DNA of 25,522 bases from positions 1 through 25,522 of IMG/VR virus record IMGVR_UViG_3300035698_007940. The stretch is one strand, 5' to 3'. Below, piece by piece: positions 362 to 24,192 of the stretch; within the stretch, counting starts at the first letter, position 1, and the number at the start of each line of letters is the position of its first letter. The position numbers were made by a program, and so were the translations under genes. The notes under the pieces were generated by a model. It was not told the origin of the DNA. It did no database searches and saw nothing but the letters and a program-made list of their open reading frames with translations. The stretch is from a virus.

Positions 362-2212
362 TTAATCTGAACAGGCACCAGTCTTGCGACCATGCTCGTC
401 GAGAGAACAAGAACCACCTTCAAGTTGAAGCTCAACAATTTTTGCAATCTCTTCGTCAACATCGGCCGATTTGATAGGCTCGTCATAATTTCCTGCTGGA
501 CGATATGTCGTGATACCTTTGGCACCGTTTTCCCAAGCCATTATGTAGATGTCTTTGAACTCGGTGTAGGGCATGTCCTCACGGACGTTGCAGGTTTTGC
601 TGACAGCACTGTCGCTCCACCTTTGAGCAGTACACAAGACGGCCACATGCTCTTCAGCTGTGATCTTACCATTGGTGACTGTCCGGCCTTTGACACCCAA
701 ATAAGCGACACCATAATCAGGAATGAGAACAGTCTTCATACCATCTTTCATGATCACATTACGCTTTTGCTCATAGGCGATCACTGGCTCAATACCTGAC
801 GATATATTGTCAGCGTAAAGCGAAATCGTACCAGTCGGTGCCACGCTTGTCAAGTGAGAGTTGCGGATACCATGCTTCTTGATCAGAGTTAGAGTGTCCT
901 CGTCCAGACCCTGAATGAACTTCCCCTTGAGATAGAGTTCAGAGTCGTAGAGTGGGAACGAACCTTTCTCAGCGGACAGTAATGCAGAGGCCTGATAACA
1001 CCTGTTCGTCAGGAACCCCATGATCTGATCTTGAACTTCAATGAACTCTGGAGTTCCATAGGGATGACCCATCGCTTCAAGAGCATTCGCCAAACCCGTG
1101 ACGCCGAGGCCCATGCGTCTTTTCCTTTGGGCTTCCAGCTTTTGTTGAGGCAGAGGGTAGCGACTACGATCTATGACATTGTCCATCGCACGAACGATGT
1201 GAGGAATGTCTTGGGCGAGTTGATCGAAGTCGAAAGAGTAGTAACCTATTTTGTCAAGACGCATAGTAAGATATTTCACGAGGTTCACACTGCCCAAGAG
1301 ACAAGCGCCATACGGAGGCAACGGCTGTTCACCACATGGATTGGTCGCAGCGATTGTTTCGCAGTACCAGAGATTATTCATGACGTTGATGCGGTCGATG
1401 AAGATCACTCCTGGTTCTGCCCAGTCGAAAGTTCCGCGCATGATCATGTCCCACAAAGCACGGGCGTTGACCTCACGATAGTTCCGGCCGCCGAATCTCA
1501 ACATGAACATTTTGTCAGCCTTGACAGCTTCCATCAGCTCATCTGTAACAGCGATAGACATATTGAAACCACGAAGCGGTCGCATATCCCAAGGGATATT
1601 CTGATCTGTAACTTGCTTCGCACGAATGAATTGCTCTATGTCAGGGTGGTCACAACGCAAGACCATCATCTGTGCGCCCCTACGGTTTCCCGCGCTGGCA
1701 GTAGCACGACAGACCATATCCAAGATGCCTGCAAAGGCAAGGGGACCGTCTGTCGCACTGTCTACACCCTTGATAATATCACCAGATGGGCGCATCGTGG
1801 AGAAATCATAACCGACACCACCGCCTTGACGCATTGTAGTCGCGGACAGTTTGGCGATGTCCATGATACTTTCGGAGTGGAAATAACCGTTGCCTCGTTC
1901 AACGATTTTCTCGGCCTCTGTTGGTCCATCAACAAAACTATCGTGAATGGTCGGCATGACGAAACAGTTGTAGAGCGTCACGTTCTTGAGTGACCCTGCT
2001 CCAGCTTGAACACGACCCGGAGGCAGAAAACGCTGTTCCATAAGGATAGAGCGAAAGGCCATGTAGTGATCATGATTGTCTTGAAGAAAGCTGGCGACGC
2101 GATTTGTGGCTTCACGAAAGTTCTCGTTTTGACCGCGATACTTCTCCGCTCCGATAGCATCACAGTGAGGATTCTGTGGTCCAGACATACGTTTTTTCTC
2201 CTGATTGTACAT
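362..2212 (-). CDS. nrdJ: Class II (adenosylcobalamin-dependent) ribonucleoside reductase, NrdJ-like
   Basis: Reduces ribonucleotides to deoxyribonucleotides to supply dNTPs for phage replication. The 616-residue protein has the reductase core: C83 in NCFVM and C304 in GACLLGSVNL form the expected reducing pair. NPCGE at 291-295 gives the radical cysteine C293 with N291 and E295. The phosphate loop is APTGT at 457-461, followed by SGIEP. GACLLGSVNL and GAKGITTYRP are typical of class II enzymes, and the class I tyrosine pair is not seen. A C-terminal pair, C602 and C614, probably re-reduces the active site. No ATP-cone is visible before the core, and the protein is shorter than many bacterial NrdJ proteins. 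The start at 2212 has AGGA upstream; a second ATG at 2188 has a good CAGGAG and could be the true start. It follows the helicase gene by 14 bases. Confidence 0.93.
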   Translation of the reverse strand: MYNQEKKRMSGPQNPHCDAIGAEKYRGQNENFREATNRVASFLQDNHDHYMAFRSILMEQRFLPPGRVQAGAGSLKNVTLYNCFVMPTIHDSFVDGPTEAEKIVERGNGYFHSESIMDIAKLSATTMRQGGGVGYDFSTMRPSGDIIKGVDSATDGPLAFAGILDMVCRATASAGNRRGAQMMVLRCDHPDIEQFIRAKQVTDQNIPWDMRPLRGFNMSIAVTDELMEAVKADKMFMLRFGGRNYREVNARALWDMIMRGTFDWAEPGVIFIDRINVMNNLWYCETIAATNPCGEQPLPPYGACLLGSVNLVKYLTMRLDKIGYYSFDFDQLAQDIPHIVRAMDNVIDRSRYPLPQQKLEAQRKRRMGLGVTGLANALEAMGHPYGTPEFIEVQDQIMGFLTNRCYQASALLSAEKGSFPLYDSELYLKGKFIQGLDEDTLTLIKKHGIRNSHLTSVAPTGTISLYADNISSGIEPVIAYEQKRNVIMKDGMKTVLIPDYGVAYLGVKGRTVTNGKITAEEHVAVLCTAQRWSDSAVSKTCNVREDMPYTEFKDIYIMAWENGAKGITTYRPAGNYDEPIKSADVDEEIAKIVELQLEGGSCSLDEHGRKTGACSD

Positions 2213-2226
2213 TGTTGATTTCCTAT

Positions 2227-3465
2227 CTACATTCTTACAATGGTCAGGTTTTCTGACGCACGAGTGATAGCAGTATAAAGCCAGCGGTCTCGCTGGTTTT
2301 TGAAACAGAAAGACTCATCAAAAACGCAAATACTTTCCCATTGAGAACCCTGTGATTTATGACAGGTGAGAGCATATCCATAATCGAACTCGTCGGCGTC
2401 AGAGCGAAGCCAGTATTGTTTCTTGAGCTCTTCACCACGTCCCAGGAAATAGTGTTCCAAAGCAGCGACGCTGACACTCATCGGGCTTCCTTCAGGATTG
2501 ACTGACATATGGACTTTTCCATCCATCACACCCTCGACATCCGTTACGTTGAAAATTGCCCCGTTTAATAAGCCTAGCTCATTGTTATTTCGGAGACAAA
2601 CTAAACGGTCCCCGAGTACAGGGTAAGGATCGTGGATGTCATGCAGCTTTCTAAGTTTCATGTTGCTGGCATGGCGGGTGATGTTTTTCCCAACGATAAC
2701 CTGATCAAAGCTGAGCATAAGTTCTGGATCAAGCTTCGTTCCTTTGGGATGAACGTGGCAATTTTGTCCCCAGTCACCAAGTTCTAAGCGCTCACCGTTG
2801 CGAACTTTTGTAGCCATCCTGAGAATAGGAGACTCGGCCGCTTGGCGATGAATTTCGTCCAACATAATATCAGGATTAATTCCCTCTGTGAAGTAACCAG
2901 CTCCACCCACTGGAGGAAGCTGCGCCGGATCACCCAAAACAAGAACAGGAGTACCGAACGATAAAAGATCAGCTCCCATTCTAGCATCAACCATTGAGCA
3001 TTCATCGATAACTATGAGCGGAGCATCTTTGACGATACTCTCTTTGTTCAGTGTGAACTGAGGCTGTGATGAGTTCACGATTTCTTCATCAATAGCTCTT
3101 TGCAAGGCTTTCACTTTGGGATGACTGTTGATGAATTCCTCTCCCATGTCTTTCATGTCAGTCAACAACATGACAAGACTTTCTTCAAGCTCTCTTAGAT
3201 GAGCCTTGCTTTTATCGCGACTACGATAAATCAGAGAGTGTATCGTAGCTGCATTTTCACAGCCTTTAGTTCGTAAAACGTGAGCGGCTTTGCCCGTATA
3301 AGCAGCGAACAGAACACCATCACTGATAGTTTCAGCGAGGTACTTTGCGAGCGTTGTTTTCCCAGTGCCAGCATACCCAAAGAGATGGAACACTTGCTTC
3401 TCACTGTTATGATACCAACGATTCACTGCCACAAGGGCCGCGTCTTGTTGCGGCGCAAATATCAT
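2227..3465 (-). CDS. RecD/Dda-type SF1 DNA helicase
   Basis: An ATP-driven DNA helicase, probably acting at the phage replication fork or in recombination. The 412 residues carry the superfamily 1B motifs in order: Walker A GYAGTGKTT (30-38), Walker B DECSMVD (154-160), motif III GDPAQLPPV (from 178), HKSQGSQW (369-376) and YTAITRA (397-403). The length is close to that of T4 Dda and much shorter than RecD, so a stand-alone helicase is likelier than a RecBCD subunit. The ATG at 3465 has AGGAG seven bases upstream. It lies downstream of an apparent intrinsic terminator and immediately upstream of the reductase. Confidence 0.93.
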   Translation of the reverse strand: MIFAPQQDAALVAVNRWYHNSEKQVFHLFGYAGTGKTTLAKYLAETISDGVLFAAYTGKAAHVLRTKGCENAATIHSLIYRSRDKSKAHLRELEESLVMLLTDMKDMGEEFINSHPKVKALQRAIDEEIVNSSQPQFTLNKESIVKDAPLIVIDECSMVDARMGADLLSFGTPVLVLGDPAQLPPVGGAGYFTEGINPDIMLDEIHRQAAESPILRMATKVRNGERLELGDWGQNCHVHPKGTKLDPELMLSFDQVIVGKNITRHASNMKLRKLHDIHDPYPVLGDRLVCLRNNNELGLLNGAIFNVTDVEGVMDGKVHMSVNPEGSPMSVSVAALEHYFLGRGEELKKQYWLRSDADEFDYGYALTCHKSQGSQWESICVFDESFCFKNQRDRWLYTAITRASENLTIVRM

Positions 3466-3481
3466 GTAGCTTCTCCTGACT

Positions 3482-3510
3482 AAAACGGACGAGGAGTTAC
3501 CCTCGTCCGT
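3482..3510 (-). terminator. Intrinsic terminator on the minus strand
   Basis: A perfect 10-bp GC-rich stem (ACGGACGAGG, loop of 6, then its complement) at 3485-3510. On the minus strand it is followed at once by four Us (3485-3482). It sits between the stop of the SSB-like gene and the Shine-Dalgarno of the helicase gene. There is no room for a new promoter, so downstream genes would rely on read-through: it may be an attenuator that lowers helicase and reductase expression relative to the SSB-like protein. Confidence 0.75.
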
Positions 3511-3530
3511 ATGTGATAAACTGTTCTGTC

Positions 3531-4391
3531 TTAGAACGGAATTTCATCAGTGTCAGAAGGAAGCGGCTTGGATTCACCACCACCCTTGCCGCCGTCTTCA
3601 CCACCTTGGCTGTCAAAGTCTGCTCGAGCCAAACCGTTCTCGATCATTGTGCCAAATTCCTTGGCTTCCTTGAGCAGATCCATGCTGTCGCCGGGATTGA
3701 TCAGCGACTCACGCCAAGTTTCAGCCATCGGGCCGATCTTGTAGTTGTAATAAGTGCCGCTTTCGTTTTTCTGCTTGGTGGTCGAAATCCAGCAGCGGTT
3801 CGCAAAGATTGGTGGACGACCTTTCTGCGTATACATCGCGGTCATCCAGTCCTTGTGGACCTTGATCTTGGTCGACGAGAAGCTGAGAACACAGTAGCCT
3901 TCGGTTTCTTTACCTTCAGCATCCATGATCAGACAATAGACGTAGTACGTCTCGACCAGATCATTGCCCGTAGGCGATTTGAACTGGATGCGTTTTCCGT
4001 CTGCGTCTTTGGGTGGAATACGCGAGCCGCCGTTCTTGGTGATAGCGTCTTTGTAAATCTGCGAGTCAAGCTCGTGACGATCAGCAAGACCACCGCCTTT
4101 GTTCCGAGGAACCCATTCGACAACAGCGGCTTCTTTGTAAACCGGGATGATGCAAACAGGTTGCTTCAAGATTTCCTTGGTCACGGAGTTGACTAAATCT
4201 CCAGCCTTGCAGCCTTCAATCGTTTGGTCCTCGACTTCCGGCGAGTTTGATTGTAGCACGTTGATGAACGGAATGGAAAGATCGTTGATCGTCGTGCCTT
4301 CAAAACCAGAGTGAGAATACTCACCATAGTCATATCCACCCGCGTTTGCGACGTTTGTGTTTTTCGTTTCAGCTACTTCTTTGCCAGCCAT
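3531..4391 (-). CDS. Putative single-stranded-DNA-binding protein with SSB-type C-terminal tip
   Basis: A 286-residue acidic protein. The body is rich in beta-strand-like segments with many aromatic residues (VEWVPR, ETYYVYCLIM, GYCVLSFSSTKIKVHKDW). It is followed by a Gly/Asp/Glu/Lys-rich linker (SQGGEDGGKGGGESKP) and ends in DTDEIPF. That ending closely matches the DDDIPF tip with which bacterial SSB recruits partner proteins; acidic tails ending in Phe are also found on phage SSBs such as T7 gp2.5. Neighbours are two helicases and a reductase, which fits a role at the fork. I do not see a textbook OB-fold signature, so the SSB assignment rests on tail and context. The chosen ATG (4391) has AAGGAG six bases upstream; the GTG further upstream at 4442 has no such site. 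Confidence 0.7.
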   Translation of the reverse strand: MAGKEVAETKNTNVANAGGYDYGEYSHSGFEGTTINDLSIPFINVLQSNSPEVEDQTIEGCKAGDLVNSVTKEILKQPVCIIPVYKEAAVVEWVPRNKGGGLADRHELDSQIYKDAITKNGGSRIPPKDADGKRIQFKSPTGNDLVETYYVYCLIMDAEGKETEGYCVLSFSSTKIKVHKDWMTAMYTQKGRPPIFANRCWISTTKQKNESGTYYNYKIGPMAETWRESLINPGDSMDLLKEAKEFGTMIENGLARADFDSQGGEDGGKGGGESKPLPSDTDEIPF

Positions 4392-4460
4392 GACAGGCTC
4401 CTTTCGGCTATAGTTATTGGGGATGCACCCCACACTCACCACTATCCTAGGTGACAGGAT

Positions 4461-4571
4461 TCACTTGTGTACGTTCATTGACAAAAGCAAAGCTTCTTGT
4501 TTTGTGAAGCCTTGACGAATTGATGCTTCGTAATGAATCTTTCTAATCTTTGAAAGCAGCTCTGCCCACAT
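4461..4571 (-). CDS. Small phage ORF, possibly the 3' part of a frame-disrupted gene
   Basis: An open frame from the ATG at 4571 gives 36 residues (MWAELLSKIRKIHYEASIRQ then GFTKQEALLLSMNVHK), helical and ending in a GFTKQEALLL segment of a kind common in small phage proteins. The same frame stays open without a start codon back to 4667 and still reads like protein there (QQSQSQNYENASHEAAIKEA). The preceding gene ends in ATGA, the overlap style used throughout this cluster, but that ATG opens another frame and stops after 18 codons. Either a short internal start is used or one base has been gained or lost. A weak GGA precedes the internal ATG. Function unknown. Confidence 0.4.
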   Translation of the reverse strand: MWAELLSKIRKIHYEASIRQGFTKQEALLLSMNVHK

Positions 4572-4656
4572 GGCTTCGTTTTCCAACGAATTTTCAGCTT
4601 CTTTTATAGCAGCCTCGTGACTAGCATTTTCATAATTTTGTGACTGTGACTGTTGG

Positions 4657-5205
4657 TCATAGGTCTTTCACTTTCGCTGTGCGTTGACGGAAAATACCAA
4701 ACGTGTCTTTGGGTAACTCGACTCCATCACCGAGGCGTTCCTTGACCCAAGAGTTGAGCGTTGCATGATGAACTGAATAATTGCTCTTCATAACAAGCTT
4801 CATTTCAAGTTTTCCCACAGCTTCAATGAACGCCTTGGTGCGAGCTTCGTCTCCTTTGGGAAACTCGAACACTAATTCGCGCTTGACGATATGACCGTAG
4901 TTGTTGTCGTCTAACCACTTTATAGCAGGCTCGCGCTTCTCACCAGCAATGCTCGAACGGATCTCTTCCTTAACAATCATTTCGCGACCATCACCAAGAT
5001 TGAATTTCCCCTCCATACCATCGGTCGCTTGTGGGATGCGCGTTTCTGCGATGTCCTTGAGCTCTGCATTGGCAAGCTCGAGTTCAACAACGATGAGAGC
5101 AACCTTTGCCTCAGCAGCGAGATATTCATCTGCTAGTGAACGCAACACAGCATTCAAATTGTCAGATGGTCTGTCATCACGAAACGCTGCATAGTCATCT
5201 TGCAT
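4657..5205 (-). CDS. Conserved phage protein of unknown function (replication cluster)
   Basis: A 182-residue charged protein. Residues about 15-60 are strongly helical and could form a coiled coil (YLAAEAKVALIVVELELANA). The middle is an alpha/beta-like region (LGDGREMIVKEEIRSSIAGE). The C-terminal part carries a YSVHHATLNSWVKERL motif followed by ELPKDTFGIFRQRTAKV. The layout (helical hairpin, charged core, helix, hydrophobic end) resembles a hypothetical protein that recurs in early regions of phages, but no catalytic motif is visible and I assign no function. The ATG at 5205 has GAGG eight bases upstream, and a sigma70-like promoter lies just before it. Its stop overlaps an ATG (ATGA) that starts only an 18-codon frame. 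Confidence 0.85.
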   Translation of the reverse strand: MQDDYAAFRDDRPSDNLNAVLRSLADEYLAAEAKVALIVVELELANAELKDIAETRIPQATDGMEGKFNLGDGREMIVKEEIRSSIAGEKREPAIKWLDDNNYGHIVKRELVFEFPKGDEARTKAFIEAVGKLEMKLVMKSNYSVHHATLNSWVKERLGDGVELPKDTFGIFRQRTAKVKDL

Positions 5206-5234
5206 TAGATTATCCTCTTGTTATCTACCTTTAC

Positions 5235-5263
5235 ATTATGCCCCATTAGCCCACAAAAGACAA
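5235..5263 (-). promoter_or_regulatory. Sigma70-like promoter
   Basis: Reading the minus strand, TTGTCT (5263-5258) is followed after exactly 17 bases by CATAAT (5240-5235), matching the sigma70 consensus at 4/6 and 5/6. It fills the gap between the stop at 5266 and the Shine-Dalgarno of the gene starting at 5205, and resembles the promoter at 7098-7126 (both have a TTGTC -35). Prediction from sequence only. Confidence 0.6.
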
Positions 5264-5265
5264 CC

Positions 5266-5604
5266 TTAATATATCTTCGCGACAATCTCCGTGTACTCAT
5301 TATGTCGTCCACTCCATTGGAGAAGCTTGACTGAGCCATCATTGTAACGAGCAGCAATCGTTGTCGCCATTCCGATAAGACCTGGATTACCTATAAGAAG
5401 AAGATGATCATCGTTACAGAAATCTGATAGTCTCTCGTGCATATCACCCAAGACAAGTCCGGGGTTGAATGGGTGCGCCGAGGGCGAGAGAAGATACTGG
5501 ATCTTCCCCCACCGCTCTGCCTTGTTGATTGATGTGAATCGAGGAACCAGTTCTTTGCTGACCTGATCGAATCTCATCTGCTTTTGGACTGCGAAGACTG
5601 TCAT
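5266..5604 (-). CDS. Conserved phage protein of unknown function, coupled to SNF2 helicase
   Basis: A 112-residue protein starting MTVFAVQKQMRFD. It has a compact hydrophobic core with LLSPSAHPFNPG, LLLIGNPGLIGMATTIAARY and a C-terminal KLLQWSGRHNEYTEIVAKIY. The NPGLIGMATTIAARYNDG stretch is the most distinctive part and belongs to a small phage family without known function, as far as I recall. The ATG overlaps the helicase stop as TAATG at 5606-5602, with AAGGA upstream, so translation is probably coupled and a partnership with the helicase is plausible. A TTG nine bases upstream is an unlikely start. Confidence 0.82.
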   Translation of the reverse strand: MTVFAVQKQMRFDQVSKELVPRFTSINKAERWGKIQYLLSPSAHPFNPGLVLGDMHERLSDFCNDDHLLLIGNPGLIGMATTIAARYNDGSVKLLQWSGRHNEYTEIVAKIY

Positions 5605-7076
5605 TATATCCAATCCTTGAGAGCATCGCCAAGAATTTCCGCAGCAACATCTTTCTTGCTACGCAAATTTGTGACTATGTGTTCATCGATCTGAGAATCA
5701 CTCATAATGTCGATATAATTGACGGGATGATCGTCCATACCGCCGCGATGCGCACGATCTTCTGACTGGAGACGGTCCAACAAGCGGAACGAATTCGAAT
5801 AGTAGACCATTGTCTTGGCCTGAGTTAGCGTAAGGCCGGAGCCACCCTTTTGGGCATTGCCGACGAACCATTGAACATCGCCTCTTTGGAAAGCCAGCTT
5901 GTTTCTCTCGGACTGATCTTGATCAACCTTACCGTCATACCGAACAGCACTCTTGCCAAGCAGGTTCATGATTTGATCAATGTCGTGGGTGAAGCGAGCC
6001 CAAATGATTCCAGGATGATGAGTCTCGTCTCGGATTTGCTCCATTGCTCCGAGCCGAGGGTTTTTCTCGGAGAACATATGTACTGGCTCGTCATCGCCGA
6101 CTGGAACATAGTTACAAGAAATCTGTTGAAGACGAAGCTGCTTCACGATGGGAAGCTCTGCTGTAATCAGGTGATCTCCGATCTCAAGCATGAGCTCGTC
6201 TTCCAACTGAGAGTAAGCGGCTTTCATTTCACGCGACATTTCAAAGTAGCGTTTCGAGTACAGCTTGGGTGGGAGATCTAGAACATCGTCCTTGAGGACT
6301 CGGTCAGAAATCTCGCTTAACCACTCGGTCAATATGTCGAGGTTTTGATATTCAATCAGCTTGTCATAACCGGGATCGTAACCATGAAGTTTCTTACAAT
6401 CAGCCGCCGTGAACCATCGGCCAAAATAATTGCGAAACTCGACTGTTCCATGAATACCATGATTCTTCCAGAACCACTCATCCAAGAACCTGATTTGACT
6501 GTAGACGTCGAATGGCCCAATAGCAACAGGAGTTCCCGTGAGGATACGACGATACTTCGCATACTTACCAGACGCAATCACGCGCTTTGTTCTTTTGGCA
6601 TCTGGTGACTTGATGTTGTGGGCTTCGTCAAGAACTTGGAGGCATTTCCGTTCTTTGAGAAACTTCCAAACAAGATCATAGCCTTCTTTTGTCATGATCC
6701 CATTGTAGCTGATCAGTAGAACAGACAGACCATCATGAGTGAACAGAGAATTCATTGCTCGCTTGTGAGCCTGTGTTGCCTTGCGCGCGGTGCTGAACAC
6801 TTGAACGCGCACGTCGAGCGCGAGCTCGGGAGGCCAGTGCTTTGGGATTTCGTCAGTGTTCCAGTTGCGCTCTACTCCAGGAGGAGCGATAACTAGCAAA
6901 CCGTCAATCTCACCATTGTCATATAAGATTGCCGCCGTGTCGATGATTGGTTTCGTTTTCGCTGTGCCTTGTTCCCAGAACAAACCCCATGACTTCTCTT
7001 TCATGTGCTTCTTGAGATGTTCAAGCTGATGCTGAAACGGTTCGACTGAGTGCGGGTAATTTTCTATATCTAACAT
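5604..7076 (-). CDS. SNF2/DEAH-type superfamily 2 helicase or translocase
   Basis: A 490-residue ATPase of the SNF2-like superfamily 2 type, predicted to move along or remodel DNA during phage replication, recombination or repair. Motifs in order: Q-motif-like VEPFQHQLEHL (11-21); motif I WEQGTAKTK (34-42), in place of the more usual GxGKT/S; motif II DEAH (150-153); motif III LTGTP (179-183); motif V GGSGLTLTQA (from 411); and motif VI QSEDRAHRGG (437-446). GSGLxLxxA and QxxxRxHRxG are characteristic of SNF2 and RapA-like enzymes. No extra DNA-binding domain is visible. The ATG at 7076 has AAGGAG five bases upstream and a strong promoter lies just before. The TAATG at its end couples it to the small gene at 5266-5604. 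Confidence 0.92.
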   Translation of the reverse strand: MLDIENYPHSVEPFQHQLEHLKKHMKEKSWGLFWEQGTAKTKPIIDTAAILYDNGEIDGLLVIAPPGVERNWNTDEIPKHWPPELALDVRVQVFSTARKATQAHKRAMNSLFTHDGLSVLLISYNGIMTKEGYDLVWKFLKERKCLQVLDEAHNIKSPDAKRTKRVIASGKYAKYRRILTGTPVAIGPFDVYSQIRFLDEWFWKNHGIHGTVEFRNYFGRWFTAADCKKLHGYDPGYDKLIEYQNLDILTEWLSEISDRVLKDDVLDLPPKLYSKRYFEMSREMKAAYSQLEDELMLEIGDHLITAELPIVKQLRLQQISCNYVPVGDDEPVHMFSEKNPRLGAMEQIRDETHHPGIIWARFTHDIDQIMNLLGKSAVRYDGKVDQDQSERNKLAFQRGDVQWFVGNAQKGGSGLTLTQAKTMVYYSNSFRLLDRLQSEDRAHRGGMDDHPVNYIDIMSDSQIDEHIVTNLRSKKDVAAEILGDALKDWI

Positions 7077-18206: not shown

Positions 18207-21200
18207 TTAGGACTGAGCGATCTGTTTCACAGTATTCGCGTTGCGTTGTAGAAGATTGATGATTTGAGTATCGCCACCAGAATCGAAAAGCCCAAAGAGA
18301 TCAGCAGGGTTTAGAACCGCTGCGATATTCACGGGAGGAGACTGAACGACTGTAGTGCCACCGCTTTCACCTTTCCCTTCTTTTTTGGCCTGTTGTTGTC
18401 CTGGTGTGAGTATGTCTACACGCTCATCAGGTCTCTTGGCAAACTGAACTATCTGCGAATCAGTTGATCCTGGCCCTGTAGGCAAGATAGAACCACCAGT
18501 CGCGAAGCCGAGACCACCTTTCCCACCGCCGAGACCACCTCCGGCAATACCTCCGAAACCACCGAGGAAAGACAACAGGAGACGTTGAGCGGCCAACTTG
18601 AGAAGCTGAGCGAACAAGTCTGCGAAGAACGCTTTGATATTCAATTTGCCTGTTTTGGCAAAATCTACGATTGCGTCAGCAGCCTTACCAGCAGCACCGA
18701 CAACGACCCCACCAAGAGCTTCACCAAATTCTCCTGCAGATTGAATGCTTCCTGCGATAGCTGCTCGGAAGCCGCCGCCGATAGTGTTGGTCGCTTTGTC
18801 AGAGTTGATTTGAAGTTCACGAAGTTTCTGGTTATAGTTTTCGAGATTGATAGCACCTTCTTGGAACAGCATATTGAGAGCTTGCTGACCGATCTGTAAT
18901 GCTTCCTGTGGTCCGCGAATTTCTTGAAGGATAGAGCCATAAGCCTTTGAAACTTCGAGAAGTTGAATAGCAGTAGCTACCTGATCTTTCTCTGTTGCTG
19001 AGAGTTCGCGTTTGATAGTTTTCTCAACTTGCAAAATCTGATTATTGATCTCTTTCTGCAAACCATATTGTTTCTCAAGCTCTATCATTTGCAGTATCTT
19101 AGCAAGCTCTTCAGCGAAAGTTTTTGTATCACTGCCCTTACCTTTTCCGCCTTGCGACGGAGGAACAACAGGAGCAGCAGGAGTGCCAGTTCTATCGATT
19201 TCACGTTGGTCATTCAAATCTTTAAGACGTTGATCAGCCCCTCTGGTTTGAGCATTGGCTACCGCACGTGTCAGGATAGCGTCATTAGCATCACCAAGGA
19301 TATTCTCAATCTTTCCGCCTTCAAAGGCACTGCTGAAGCCGTCCTGGAAAGCATCAGACGCGATCTGACCTGCTCCTTGAACAGAGGTTACGAAACGACC
19401 GAGATTAGCTGGTCTGATCTCTGGGATTTCTCCTGAGAAACCAAAGAATTCAGCGGCTTTCTGGCCGCCGACAAAGGAGACCAAGCTATTCAAAGCTGAG
19501 ATAACTTTGTTGATACCTATAATAGCGGCATTAACCCACGATTCGAATCCTTCTATCATAGCATTCGCAAGACCCATAGCCACATCACCAGCCGCTCCTG
19601 GAAGAGACTGCAAGGCCGCGATAATCCCAAACACAACGCCCACCACCACTCTTGGGAGAAAAGTGAAAGCGTTTATGATCGAGGTTGCTACATTCATGAA
19701 AACAGTTCCAATAAATCCAGCAAAAGAGGAAAGAGCTGATACAACTGAGTCAAGTCCAGATTTGAGAGTTTGCCAAACAGGACCAAGAAACGGTGCGATC
19801 GCTTTGTACATCAATTGCCAAGCAGCTATGAAATAGTCTTTGAGAGTAATCATTCCGTTTAGAGCGACACCAATTTTGTCTCCGAAGATAGCGACAGCGG
19901 ATACCAATAAGAAAACAGCACCAATAACAGCAGTGATTGGATTCGCAAGCAGAACAGCACCAAAGGAAGACATCGCAGCGGTAGCACCAAGAGTAACACC
20001 TGTAAGCAATGGGAAGACGGCTGTCAGACGCGTCAGGAAAGCTCCCTGCGTGGCTGTAGCTCCTGCTAGACGCGCTCGTGCCGCAGCTTGCGCAGTCTCA
20101 GTCGCTGTCGTCTGTGCTGACAAAGCGGCACTTCTACCAGTCGCGATATTGTTTGCATTTTCAGCTGCTGTGAGACGAATGGTGGCGGCAGTCAATCTAT
20201 CGCGAGCGAGTTGCATATTGATGAACTGACCAGTCGCCAGAGAGCGAGCACTACCACCTTGGAAGACCGCCGCCGCGTTAGCATATTCTGCTTGAGCATT
20301 ACGCAGAGTTGCTCCTACCTGAACAGAGCGAATTTGAATATTCTGCAGACGAGCGCGGTTATCGTTGAGAGTGGCAGTCGTAGAAGCAAGTTGTTTCCCA
20401 GCAGAGGCAACTTGAATCGCAGAGTATCTAGCTACCGCTGCTCCAGCACGAGTGTATCCGGCAGCGAGTAAACTCAAAGATTTGATGGCTGAGGCACCCA
20501 AGGAAAGAGCGAAGGCAACAGTCAGAGCAGCAAGAAGGCGAATCAAGACGTCTATATTCTCAGAGATTACAATAATCGCGGATGCGAGCTTGGCACTCGC
20601 TCCTGTCGCATCATCAAAGGCATCGATGAATGAAATAAGGTTGTTTTTCGCCACGATGAAAGATTGCTCAATAGTGGGAGCAGTTTGCGAAAACAGATTG
20701 TCAATACCACCCTTAGCTTGCTCGATAGCTCTGAAAACGATATCAGCTGTCAACTTGCCTTCTGTACCTAGCTTACGAAGTGAACCACGAGTAACATTCC
20801 CGAATTGCTGCGTCTTGTTGAGGTAGTCAACGATTAGATCGGCAACAAGCGGAAGCTGTTCAAGAACGGAACGAAGTTCGTCACCTCCCAATCGGTCGGA
20901 AGCGAGACCTTGTCCAAGCTGGACCAAGGCTGCGTTTGCTTCTTGGGCAGCAGCACCAGAAAGAATAGCAGCTTTTTGTAGAGTTTCAGTAACGTCGATA
21001 ACTTGTTGCTGACTGACGCCAAGACCACGAGTAGAAAGGGCGAGACGACTGTAGACACTGGCTGTTGCTTCTACAGCTGAACGAGAACGATTCGCCGATG
21101 CGAACAATCTGTCTTGCACAGCTTCTAGGTTTGAGGTACTCCTCGAGGTAAGTCGAAGCTTATTCTCCATGTTCGTAAGAGCATCGGTCATCTTTATGAT

Positions 21201-21362
21201 GCCATTGACAATTCCCGCTCCACCCAAAACGAAGATGGCGCGCTGCAACAGAAATATTCCACGAGTTGCTTTGTTCGCAGCTTGACCAATATCATCGATT
21301 TTGCGCTTGACGACTCTAGAGCCTCTTTCGACGAAGTTAATCGTGACGGTTTCGGTAACCAT
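18207..21362 (-). CDS. Tail tape measure protein
   Basis: The longest ORF (1051 residues), sitting after the assembly chaperones as expected. Residues about 70-235 match the conserved tape measure N-terminal domain (VEATASVYSRLALSTRGLGV, ALVQLGQGLASDRLGGDELR, SVLEQLPLVADLIVDYL). The middle holds several long hydrophobic helices (ALTVAFALSLGASAIKSL, LLANPITAVIGAVFLLVSAV, FLPRVVVGVVFGIIAALQSL) that may insert in the host membrane during DNA entry. The end has a glycine-rich stretch and the typical ATGGSI, DSQIVQFAKRPDERVDILTP tail. At roughly 0.15 nm per residue it would set a tail near 150-160 nm (inference). The ATG overlaps the previous stop (TAATG) with GGGGAG upstream. Confidence 0.95.
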   Translation of the reverse strand: MVTETVTINFVERGSRVVKRKIDDIGQAANKATRGIFLLQRAIFVLGGAGIVNGIIKMTDALTNMENKLRLTSRSTSNLEAVQDRLFASANRSRSAVEATASVYSRLALSTRGLGVSQQQVIDVTETLQKAAILSGAAAQEANAALVQLGQGLASDRLGGDELRSVLEQLPLVADLIVDYLNKTQQFGNVTRGSLRKLGTEGKLTADIVFRAIEQAKGGIDNLFSQTAPTIEQSFIVAKNNLISFIDAFDDATGASAKLASAIIVISENIDVLIRLLAALTVAFALSLGASAIKSLSLLAAGYTRAGAAVARYSAIQVASAGKQLASTTATLNDNRARLQNIQIRSVQVGATLRNAQAEYANAAAVFQGGSARSLATGQFINMQLARDRLTAATIRLTAAENANNIATGRSAALSAQTTATETAQAAARARLAGATATQGAFLTRLTAVFPLLTGVTLGATAAMSSFGAVLLANPITAVIGAVFLLVSAVAIFGDKIGVALNGMITLKDYFIAAWQLMYKAIAPFLGPVWQTLKSGLDSVVSALSSFAGFIGTVFMNVATSIINAFTFLPRVVVGVVFGIIAALQSLPGAAGDVAMGLANAMIEGFESWVNAAIIGINKVISALNSLVSFVGGQKAAEFFGFSGEIPEIRPANLGRFVTSVQGAGQIASDAFQDGFSSAFEGGKIENILGDANDAILTRAVANAQTRGADQRLKDLNDQREIDRTGTPAAPVVPPSQGGKGKGSDTKTFAEELAKILQMIELEKQYGLQKEINNQILQVEKTIKRELSATEKDQVATAIQLLEVSKAYGSILQEIRGPQEALQIGQQALNMLFQEGAINLENYNQKLRELQINSDKATNTIGGGFRAAIAGSIQSAGEFGEALGGVVVGAAGKAADAIVDFAKTGKLNIKAFFADLFAQLLKLAAQRLLLSFLGGFGGIAGGGLGGGKGGLGFATGGSILPTGPGSTDSQIVQFAKRPDERVDILTPGQQQAKKEGKGESGGTTVVQSPPVNIAAVLNPADLFGLFDSGGDTQIINLLQRNANTVKQIAQS

Positions 21363-21841
21363 TAAAAGTCTCCCCAGCTATCAGCACCAGAACGATCGAA
21401 TATCTTGAAACCACGGAGTACTATCTGAGCTTCTCTGATCGAGACTTCCACAGCACCAGGAAGAAGAGCCTTGTCCAAATAAGGAACATTATTCGTTATT
21501 GTGATTGCTGTCTTCAAACCAACACCAGCCACACCTCTGACGCTGTTAATGCGAGCACTACCAGCTGAGATAGCAGCAGAAGCGTTCGCAGTTTCTGATG
21601 CTCCAAGACCATTAGCTTTACTCCCCTTAGGATAGGGAGCATAAGCCTCAATGACAGCGGAGGGAGAACCACCAATACCGACACGCCAATTAGAGCGAGC
21701 TTTTCCGGTATCAGCTTTTGTGTTTTGAACAAGGGAACGAAGACTGCGTTTTGCCATGCTGCGAACAAGCTCTGAAGCCGAGTTCTCAACCTGACGTCCA
21801 CGACGTCTAATGTTTCTAGAGAACTGGATCAGGTCAGCCAT
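21362..21841 (-). CDS. Minor virion protein, HK97 gp10 / tail-completion-like
   Basis: A 159-residue basic protein. Residues about 1-60 are helical and arginine-rich, ending in KADTGKARSNWRVGIGG, a DTGxxRxxWR motif typical of HK97 gp10-like neck and tail-completion proteins. The C-terminal ITITNNVPYLDKALLPGA block is also found there. Oddly, it lies between the chaperones and the tape measure rather than upstream of the tail tube gene. It overlaps both neighbours by one base, so it is part of the tail operon. Confidence 0.72.
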   Translation of the reverse strand: MADLIQFSRNIRRRGRQVENSASELVRSMAKRSLRSLVQNTKADTGKARSNWRVGIGGSPSAVIEAYAPYPKGSKANGLGASETANASAAISAGSARINSVRGVAGVGLKTAITITNNVPYLDKALLPGAVEVSIREAQIVLRGFKIFDRSGADSWGDF

Positions 21842-22167
21842 TATTTTTGCTTCTTCGCTTGGTGCTTCATATAGACAGTGTCCATGGCGATTATGTGCAT
21901 GTGCATCATCTCTTGCTGTTCTTCATCAAGTCCCTTTGTAGTTCCGTATTGTTCAACCGCGAGCCATGGGATAGGTCCAATGCCGAAACCCATTTGCCGC
22001 GAAGAAGTTAACTCCAGAAACCCTATATAGTATAGCTCAAGCCCCGGAGCAATGCTAGGGGCATTTTCAATACGACTGGGTATTGGCAGGCCTGTTTTCA
22101 CGGCCTGCTCAATGATTTGCTGTTCTACCGCCCCGCTTTGGAGTTGATACTCCAGGACGGCTATTAG
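21841..22167 (-). CDS. Tail assembly chaperone, T part of a G-T frameshift fusion
   Basis: The frame from 22167 to 21841 (108 residues) continues the chaperone G frame after a -1 shift at A AAA AAC. It reads KLIAVLEYQLQSGAVEQQII then EQAVKTGLPIPSRIENAPSI, with no stop between the slip site and 21841. The G-T fusion would total 250 residues. In lambda-like phages this rare fusion binds tape measure protein and recruits tube subunits. The later GTG at 22101 used by simple ORF prediction lacks a good ribosome site, which supports frameshift expression. The segment MGFGIGPIPWLAVEQYGTTK is distinctive. Confidence 0.85.
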   Translation of the reverse strand, partial: LIAVLEYQLQSGAVEQQIIEQAVKTGLPIPSRIENAPSIAPGLELYYIGFLELTSSRQMGFGIGPIPWLAVEQYGTTKGLDEEQQEMMHMHIIAMDTVYMKHQAKKQK

Positions 22168-22173
22168 TTTTTT
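22139..22173 (-). promoter_or_regulatory. Programmed -1 ribosomal frameshift signal
   Basis: The minus strand has the slippery heptamer A AAA AAC (22173-22167) in register with the chaperone G frame (TCA AAA AAC TAA), directly before its stop at 22164-22166. After 12 bases comes a hairpin TGGAG, loop TATCAA, CTCCA (22154-22139) that could stimulate slippage. The -1 frame then runs into the downstream ORF. Confidence 0.85.
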
Positions 22174-22592
22174 GAATCTTCTTCAGCTTCCAACTTGCGA
22201 TAGTTAGAAATCGCATTGGCTTGCTCCTGAACGTCTATGAACAGGTTTGGCAAAGACTCGAAAGCCTTTTGAACTTCTTCTTTGTTGAAGGGAAGAATTT
22301 CACCGTTACGGCCTTCAATTCCAGGTTTCCAGCCATCGTCGCCTTTGACTTGCCAATCCAAAACGATTGTCTTAGCATAGATGTCAGACATGATCGACAT
22401 GGAGCGCTCGTTGGATATCGCTCCTGCTTGCATTGCGCGACGAATCGGCTTCAAAGCCTTTTCAGCATAGCGAACATATTTCTTGTTGCCTTGACCAGCG
22501 GAAGCGACCCTAATTCGAAAGTCGCCATAATCCAACCAGATACCAGCGTTTTCGAGATCCTCATCGGTCTCGAAAATATCGTACATACCCAT
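22164..22592 (-). CDS. Tail assembly chaperone G
   Basis: A 142-residue acidic-to-mixed protein (MGMYDIFETDEDLENAGIWL, later KYVRYAEKALKPIRRAMQ). Its location between the tail tube gene and the tape measure, and the slippery end, identify it as the G-type chaperone that coats the tape measure before tube assembly. The body is mostly helical with a conserved-looking WQVKGDDGWKPGIEG loop. The ATG at 22592 has TAGGAG seven bases upstream. Most ribosomes should stop at 22164; a minority shift -1 at the A AAA AAC site to make the longer G-T protein. Confidence 0.9.
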   Translation of the reverse strand: MGMYDIFETDEDLENAGIWLDYGDFRIRVASAGQGNKKYVRYAEKALKPIRRAMQAGAISNERSMSIMSDIYAKTIVLDWQVKGDDGWKPGIEGRNGEILPFNKEEVQKAFESLPNLFIDVQEQANAISNYRKLEAEEDSKN

Positions 22593-22618: not shown

Positions 22619-22642
22619 AGACGCCGCTCTTACGCGGCGTCT
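22619..22642 (-). other. Stem-loop overlapping the tail tube gene stop
   Basis: A perfect 9-bp stem (AGACGCCGC, loop of 6, complement) at 22619-22642 covers the last codons and the stop (22630-22632) of the major tail protein gene. No U-run follows on the minus strand, so it is not a full terminator. It may stabilise the abundant tail tube mRNA or partly shield the downstream chaperone genes from read-through. Confidence 0.6.
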
Positions 22643-24192
22643 GGAACGTAATGGAACAAAGTAATCAACAGAGTGTGATCGAGCTCTGAGCTGATGTCTT
22701 GACCGGAAGCTGCATCCGTGGTGAGTGGAAGAGTTACGGCTTGGTCGATTTCTATGCTGAGGCGTCCGTCGCCCAAGGAGATCAAGGGCAGGTCATAGAT
22801 CAGCGCCGTGTTGTCCTTGACGAAACTGACATCGAGTGTCACACTCACGTTGTTACGAACAGCCTGTGTCGCAACAACGCTTGAGAAATAAGCGGTAACC
22901 GAACCAGATACGTTGAACGTACCAGCAGTCACGTCGAAAGCACCCAGAACACCGACAGCCTTGTTGGGCGTGACGTTGTTGTTGATCGCGACGCTTGCTT
23001 CCGTAACGTATGCGAACAAAGCCGCGGAGGCTTCATCGACGTCCGATACGATACCCAAACGAATACGACCAACATCGCTGGAAGTATTGTATTCAGACGC
23101 GGTACGGAAGAGTTGAACGCTGGTTTGTTTCGGGCCGACGACACCAGTCCTCTGAACGTTGTCTGTTGCGATGAAACTAAAGTCAACATTCGCAAGCTCT
23201 GCTTGTGGAACATTGAGCGTAAATTCATTCGGCACAGAACCGATCAAAACTTCGGACTGAATTTGTGACGGGAAGGCATCGTCAGGAGCTCCGAGAGTTC
23301 GTTCGAGATTGTATGTCCGACGAACGATCAGAGCACCTGTTTCGTTACGAAGAACATCACCGAAGAACAACCTGATGGTCTTACCACTGGAAGCCGTTTC
23401 TGCGGTCATTGCGGCATCAGACTTGTCGAAAGTTATACCAGTGGTATCAATCGTACGAATACGCTTGAAGCCATTGTTCACTACCGCTGTGAACGTCTTG
23501 GCTGCTGTATCACCGCCGACATACACCCACTGACCGGGAACAAGATTCAACGTGGTGAAATCAGTGAGAGCGCCCGCTGATTCAAGACGTGGAAGATTGC
23601 CCGAGACGTTGATGATAGCATCGTTCGCTGCAAACTCGAAACCAACGACTTTGACGTCGGCTCCGGCGGGCGGCGAAGATTCCACTGCCAGAGTACCATC
23701 AGCAACTTCTACCGAGGTATCAGTGACAATGGCGGTGACGACGTTCGGGGAATTGTTCGCTTGATTTGCAAAACCACGACCGATGATCAAATTACCGACG
23801 ATGAAACCAGCAGTTGATGCGACCAGATACTCGTCAGGGTTGACGCCGTCAAGAGCGACTTCTGTCACAAGTTCTTCGCCCTGCGGACGAATGCTCGCGA
23901 ACATCACGCCCTGCATGAGATGAGCGAGATTCTCAAACGTGAGATTGTGGTTGAAGCCACCAGTCGCGTTGAGATCTGTCGTAACGCCTTTTCGGCGTTG
24001 ACGAGATGGGTTGATCGGATTTGGAGCAACCGTGACGATCTCGCCGCCGAAGTCGCTGTAACTATTCGGATTCAACCGATACCAAATCGGTGTTCCTGGA
24101 TTTCCGCCTTCACCGGGAAGTAGGCCGAGCTGAGCTTCTTCAGCATAGGCGAGACCGGTGATGTTGGAGTCGATCTTTGGGACCTGTGCCAT
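22630..24192 (-). CDS. Major tail tube protein
   Basis: The 520-residue protein is the likely building block of the tail tube. The N-terminal part has SRQRRKGVTTDLNATGGFNH and FENLAHLMQGVMFASIRP, a pattern typical of phage tube proteins, and the C-terminal third is beta-rich with FTLNVPQAELANVDFSFIAT, then RIRLGIVSDVDEASAALFAY and VTEASVAINNNVTPNKAVGV. It is longer than most tube proteins, so the middle (about residues 110-260) may be an added decoration domain. The ATG at 24192 has AAGGAGG, the strongest Shine-Dalgarno in the window, as expected for an abundant subunit. Its upstream neighbour is the tail terminator and the downstream ones are the chaperones. Confidence 0.9.
   Translation of the reverse strand: MAQVPKIDSNITGLAYAEEAQLGLLPGEGGNPGTPIWYRLNPNSYSDFGGEIVTVAPNPINPSRQRRKGVTTDLNATGGFNHNLTFENLAHLMQGVMFASIRPQGEELVTEVALDGVNPDEYLVASTAGFIVGNLIIGRGFANQANNSPNVVTAIVTDTSVEVADGTLAVESSPPAGADVKVVGFEFAANDAIINVSGNLPRLESAGALTDFTTLNLVPGQWVYVGGDTAAKTFTAVVNNGFKRIRTIDTTGITFDKSDAAMTAETASSGKTIRLFFGDVLRNETGALIVRRTYNLERTLGAPDDAFPSQIQSEVLIGSVPNEFTLNVPQAELANVDFSFIATDNVQRTGVVGPKQTSVQLFRTASEYNTSSDVGRIRLGIVSDVDEASAALFAYVTEASVAINNNVTPNKAVGVLGAFDVTAGTFNVSGSVTAYFSSVVATQAVRNNVSVTLDVSFVKDNTALIYDLPLISLGDGRLSIEIDQAVTLPLTTDAASGQDISSELDHTLLITLFHYVPDAA

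Follow-up and report, generated by a model that had tools for sequence, protein, structure and literature searches.

A conserved A AAA AAC signal predicted to direct a −1 frameshift between the tail chaperone frames G and T of an IMG/VR virus

Tail chaperones made by frameshifting are widespread among long-tailed phages. In phage lambda, where the slippery heptamer is GGGAAAG, G and T lie between the tail tube and tape measure genes and a −1 frameshift near the end of G gives two products. The heptamers GGGAAAC, AAAAAAC and GGGAAAG have been reported in three haloarchaeal viruses (PMC5009743), and the Caulobacter phiCbK-like phages and Colossus use a −1 frameshift at AAAAAAC or GGGAAAC (PMC3556154). 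For the tail chaperones gp12/gp13 of Acinetobacter phage vB_AbaS_Loki, AAAAAAC is reported immediately adjacent to the G stop codon (PMC5313236). Chaperones are absent from the main text of the paper on Mesyanzhinovviridae (Lydia; PMC11946847).

We analyzed a window of 25,522 nucleotides (the whole stretch of DNA presented here, positions 1 to 25,522 of IMG/VR record IMGVR_UViG_3300035698_007940), for which a first-pass annotation had proposed that an A AAA AAC heptamer joins two tail chaperone frames. The genes and sites concerned are as follows.

22633-24192, minus strand: tail tube protein, 520 aa (PF18906 Phage_tube_2, E = 2e-27)
22167-22592, minus strand: G frame, putative tail assembly chaperone, 142 aa (phrog_313, phrog_8233 N-terminal half; homologues in 210 phage records)
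22173-22167, minus strand: slippery heptamer A AAA AAC, in X XXY YYZ register with G and abutting the G stop
22166-22164, minus strand: G stop codon TAA, as read in the sequence
21844-22167, minus strand: T frame (−1), 108 codons (PF23812, phrog_3817, phrog_8233 C-terminal half), without a start of its own before residue 23
21365-21841, minus strand: tail completion or Neck1 protein, HK97-gp10-like, between T and the tape measure gene (phrog_169, E = 1e-13; PF04883 below cut-off)
18210-21362, minus strand: tape measure protein, 1051 aa (PF20155 TMP_3, E = 4e-52; PF09718)

The tail module is encoded on the minus strand in the order head-tail adaptor, head closure, tail terminator, tail tube, G, T, neck-type, tape measure and further tail genes, and the G/T pair is located, as in lambda, between the tail tube and tape measure genes with one neck-type gene between T and the latter. 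G matched phrog_313 (E = 5e-24) and the N-terminal half of phrog_8233 (E = 1.8e-10). T matched phrog_3817 (E = 7e-31), the C-terminal half of phrog_8233 (E = 4e-20) and, above the cut-off, the Pfam family PF23812 Phage_TAC_18 (E = 7e-19). The fact that phrog_8233 covers the G and T halves as a single family suggests that the frames of some other phages have been treated as one protein. A search of the solved-structure set found no convincing sequence relatives for G or T; from family names and synteny we infer that both probably function as chaperones. The 520-aa tail tube protein spans about 327 PHROG-profile positions and 263 Pfam-profile positions, so it seems to have an insertion or an additional domain. 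Further downstream, after the tail and endolysin genes, positions 362-7076 (minus strand) encode the large subunit of ribonucleotide reductase and two helicases, one of them Dda-like, as assigned by PHROGs, and two proteins of the unknown-function families phrog_2402 and phrog_2378.

The window differs from lambda in having one extra gene between T and the tape measure gene. Loki shares with it both a tail chaperone pair and an HK97-gp10-like gene that separates T from the tape measure gene, but no hairpin is described for Loki in the available part of the report (PMC5313236). In Ab_SZ3, a homologue examined for the comparison with Loki, G is only about 25% identical to that of the window. The phiCbK-like phages and Colossus also have the chaperone before the tape measure, but their genomes are much larger; in CcrPW, examined for this comparison, no hairpin signal follows the heptamer and T is not separated from the tape measure gene by a neck-type gene. 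YuA and other Mesyanzhinovviridae (three records) have homologous G (37% identity) and T (49% identity) in the same −1 arrangement, with the heptamer GGGAAAC; however, in these phages the heptamer ends 39 nt before the stop, which results in a longer G. The YuA record has an annotated strong −24/−12 promoter in the T frame (1303-1463), 186 nt past the heptamer.

Reading of the junction located the G frame at 22592-22167 (142 codons), ending in GAT TCA AAA AAC TAA, so that the heptamer lies in the G register directly before the stop, as the first-pass annotation had stated. A one-base backward slip would continue as CTA ATA GCC GTC CTG in the −1 frame. This frame is open, again as proposed, down to 21841: 108 codons run from 22167 to the TAA at 21843-21841, and 142 + 108 codons give the 250 residues expected of a fusion. 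On sequence evidence, this arrangement is best explained by programmed −1 frameshifting of ribosomes, as in lambda G/GT, which would yield a 250-aa G-T tail chaperone fusion (probability about 0.96). In the established model, tandem slippage takes place after AAC has been decoded, and under this model the predicted junction is D-S-K-N-L-I-A-V. The K-K-L-I-A junction suggested earlier should therefore be replaced by S-K-N-L-I-A, since K-K-L-I-A would arise only if the shift preceded AAC decoding. The 7-mer AAAAAAC is not itself rare (two copies in the window against six expected), and chance is excluded by conservation instead; the second copy, at 2197-2191, is outside the X XXY YYZ register. 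Upstream of the heptamer, comparison with synonymous shuffles showed no clear enrichment of a dnaX-type SD-like element (mean z −0.21, s.e. 0.13), and that of the window is weak (−3.3 kcal/mol).

G and T each served as query in IMG/VR; together with annotated phages, this gave 98 distinct homologous junctions, the window included. A canonical slippery heptamer was present at every one of them: GGGAAAC at 57 (a count that takes in Roseobacter phage RDJL3, in which the T anchor is off by one codon), AAAAAAC at 40, including the window, and GGGAAAG at one. It was likewise found in 45 out of 45 clusters below 70% identity. Other in-register copies of GGGAAAC or AAAAAAC occurred at three of 13,315 G-frame positions (last 420 nt of the G frames). 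The closest relatives, with G 90% identical, have TCG GGA AAC at the position of TCA AAA AAC in the window: the Gly to Lys change at the slip codon is accompanied by a matching change in the wobble base just before it, which preserves the run of three. Such matching was observed in every one of the 12 codon combinations present, and AAT was never used for Asn. Selection for slippage would be the natural cause of both the conserved heptamer and the coupled wobble changes. Conservation in related phages had been proposed as a check, and the case named as contrary to the frameshift, relatives lacking the heptamer and starting T from its own ATG, was looked for and is absent among the 98 junctions. 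The near-universal rule of two heptamers in this G/T family may be a modest new point. One homologue (L147, 1483-1489) carries the lambda-type GGGAAAG and not XXXAAAC.

The same junctions bear on whether a single G-T gene was split by a sequencing error or a single-base frameshift mutation. One base change would indeed join the frames, and phrog_8233 covers both; however, the identical −1 arrangement is found at the same point in all 98 distinct junctions, which come from independent contigs and isolated phages, and no relative has the two in a single reading frame. A split gene is thus refuted by the relatives, and we give it practically no weight.

A second alternative concerns the start of T. 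The T frame is closed by a stop five codons upstream of the G stop, and the first ATG, GTG or TTG within it is GTG 22101, at T residue 23. If T were a separate gene, translationally coupled to G and started internally, for example at this in-frame GTG, the heptamer would be incidental; many records do give T as a CDS of its own that begins internally, among them AN14, FP1 and Knedl. Against this, the T alignment of relatives is conserved from residue 1, and a start at GTG 22101 would lose 22 residues including the conserved L1, V4, L5, Y7, G12 and E15. In addition, the ribosome-binding site at this codon is weak (−1.9 kcal/mol), the codon sits in the loop of hairpin 2 (described below), and the canonical heptamer at 98 of 98 junctions would be left unexplained. 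An internal start is rejected on the basis of the relatives and we regard it as very improbable; the earlier view that T is without a usable start stands.

The downstream structure had been described as a small hairpin 12 bases after the heptamer. A hairpin is present, but that description took in only its inner part.

22127-22161, minus strand: putative stimulatory hairpin 1, 13-bp stem with a 5-nt bulge and a 4-nt loop, starting 5 nt after the heptamer

In this structure 22161-22149 pair with 22144-22140 and 22134-22127; its fold in the window has an energy of −18.5 kcal/mol (z −4.2), and none of 200 shuffles was equally stable. For the relatives, structure was assessed against synonymous shuffles in which both the protein and the codons of T were retained. 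The 48 nt immediately past the heptamer gave a mean z of −2.17 over the 98 junctions, 82% of which were below −1, and a scan along G and T confined the structure signal to this spot and one other. Stems of at least 7 bp start mostly at nucleotides 6-10 past the heptamer, which is the usual distance of frameshift stimulators. In a register-matched group of 26 sequences, more distant from the window, 94.6% of cells pair, no shuffle out of 500 reached the covariation score, and pairing dropped to 37-51% when the partner was slid by one to three columns; seven of 12 pairs changed on both sides, a count inflated by the picking of this group by stem register. Among 70 representatives chosen irrespective of register, this register alone still stood out (z 5.5), all others being within about 2.3 of zero. 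The window's clade uses a different stem register, and within it the covariation of the register-41 hairpin was not above shuffles (nine distinct rows; the outer pairing shifts register). No Rfam family matched in the window. Overall, the data demonstrate that hairpin 1 is under selection in the relatives.

These results also weigh on transcriptional slippage, in which the fusion would be made by a polymerase slipping on the run of A residues. The window does have six consecutive A, but more than half of the homologues carry GGGAAAC, with no homopolymer over three, and the downstream hairpin is conserved at a spacing typical of ribosomal frameshifting. We consider slippage of this type just as improbable as an internal start of T.

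Comparative support for the ribosomal frameshift is firm, and the signal is real, was correctly interpreted in the first-pass annotation and is ordinary in kind. Most ribosomes would read G to the TAA abutting the heptamer and release the 142-aa chaperone. A few would pause at A AAA AAC, held by the hairpin 5 nt downstream, slip back one base and translate 108 more codons, giving the 250-aa G-T fusion. If the proteins act as their lambda counterparts do, G, free or as part of GT, would bind the tape measure protein, and the T portion of GT would bring in tail tube subunits. E. coli ribosomes slip far less readily on A AAA AAC than on A AAA AAG (PMC5009743). Such weak slipperiness fits a low-level fusion product, and in combination with the abutting stop it suggests that the frequency of fusion could be low.

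The occurrence of A AAA AAC next to the stop had been singled out as worth recording. It does lie there, but the claim to note is weaker than was thought: Loki has already been published with this arrangement (PMC5313236), and AAAAAAC or GGGAAAC are in use in the phiCbK-like phages and Colossus (PMC3556154). After correction for RDJL3, the 0-frame stop lies 0 nt from the heptamer at 61 of the 98 junctions, 3 nt at 20, 12 nt at five, 39 nt at 11 and 51 nt at one, and it abuts the heptamer in 39 of the 45 sequence clusters. The first T residue is Leu at all junctions but one. Its codon is CTA, which places TAA or TAG in the G frame, in 29 cases, compared with about 9.6 predicted from codon usage (P = 3e-9 over all junctions, not all of which are independent); CTA was found in 14 of the 45 clusters. 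This over-use of a rare Leu codon at the start of T indicates that stop placement appears to be selected, and selection on stop position at the heptamer is apparently unreported so far. In bacteria, frameshifting at the HIV slippery site fell when a stop immediately followed the site, and it became sensitive to the release factor that reads this stop (Horsfield 1995, as described in PMC4373837). Based on this effect, the abutting stop could tune the G:GT ratio; simple selection for a short G would also account for it. The question raised is why the stop abuts the slip site in so many clusters despite the expected competition with slippage.

The other spot in the synonymous-site scan spans roughly +49 to +94 (mean z −1.3; −4.6 in the window) and corresponds to a second hairpin.

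22086-22108, minus strand: hairpin 2, within T, GCAGGCC / GGCCTGC with a 9-nt loop, 58 nt after the heptamer

Its sequence in the window is GCAGGCC-GTGAAAACA-GGCCTGC (22108-22086). Most of the window's clade has a 7-12 bp stem in this register, another group of relatives has 7-17 bp stems centered 9 nt further on, and many relatives are without hairpin 2. It is too distant downstream to act as a simple road-block of a ribosome at the heptamer. A conserved hairpin 2 in the window's clade is apparently unreported so far. A more elaborate scheme, which we put forward tentatively and think rather unlikely, is a compound signal: X XXA AAC abutting a selected stop, with hairpin 1 at 5-8 nt and hairpin 2 about 58 nt on, in which a release factor would perhaps compete with slippage to set the G:GT ratio and hairpin 2 would modulate it.

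The comparison confirms an expression signal that is overlooked by standard annotation. Searching for GGGAAAC or AAAAAAC near the G stop with a hairpin after it offers a clear way to locate the second product of the tail chaperone genes, both in YuA-like phages and in many that are unclassified. The prediction that simple gene calling would miss the fusion was well founded, as the frames are joined in only two out of 19 annotated phage records examined, both of Rhodobacter phages; in the remaining records T is called from an internal start or omitted. For example, T is unannotated in the YuA record and is a separate CDS in AN14 and FP1.
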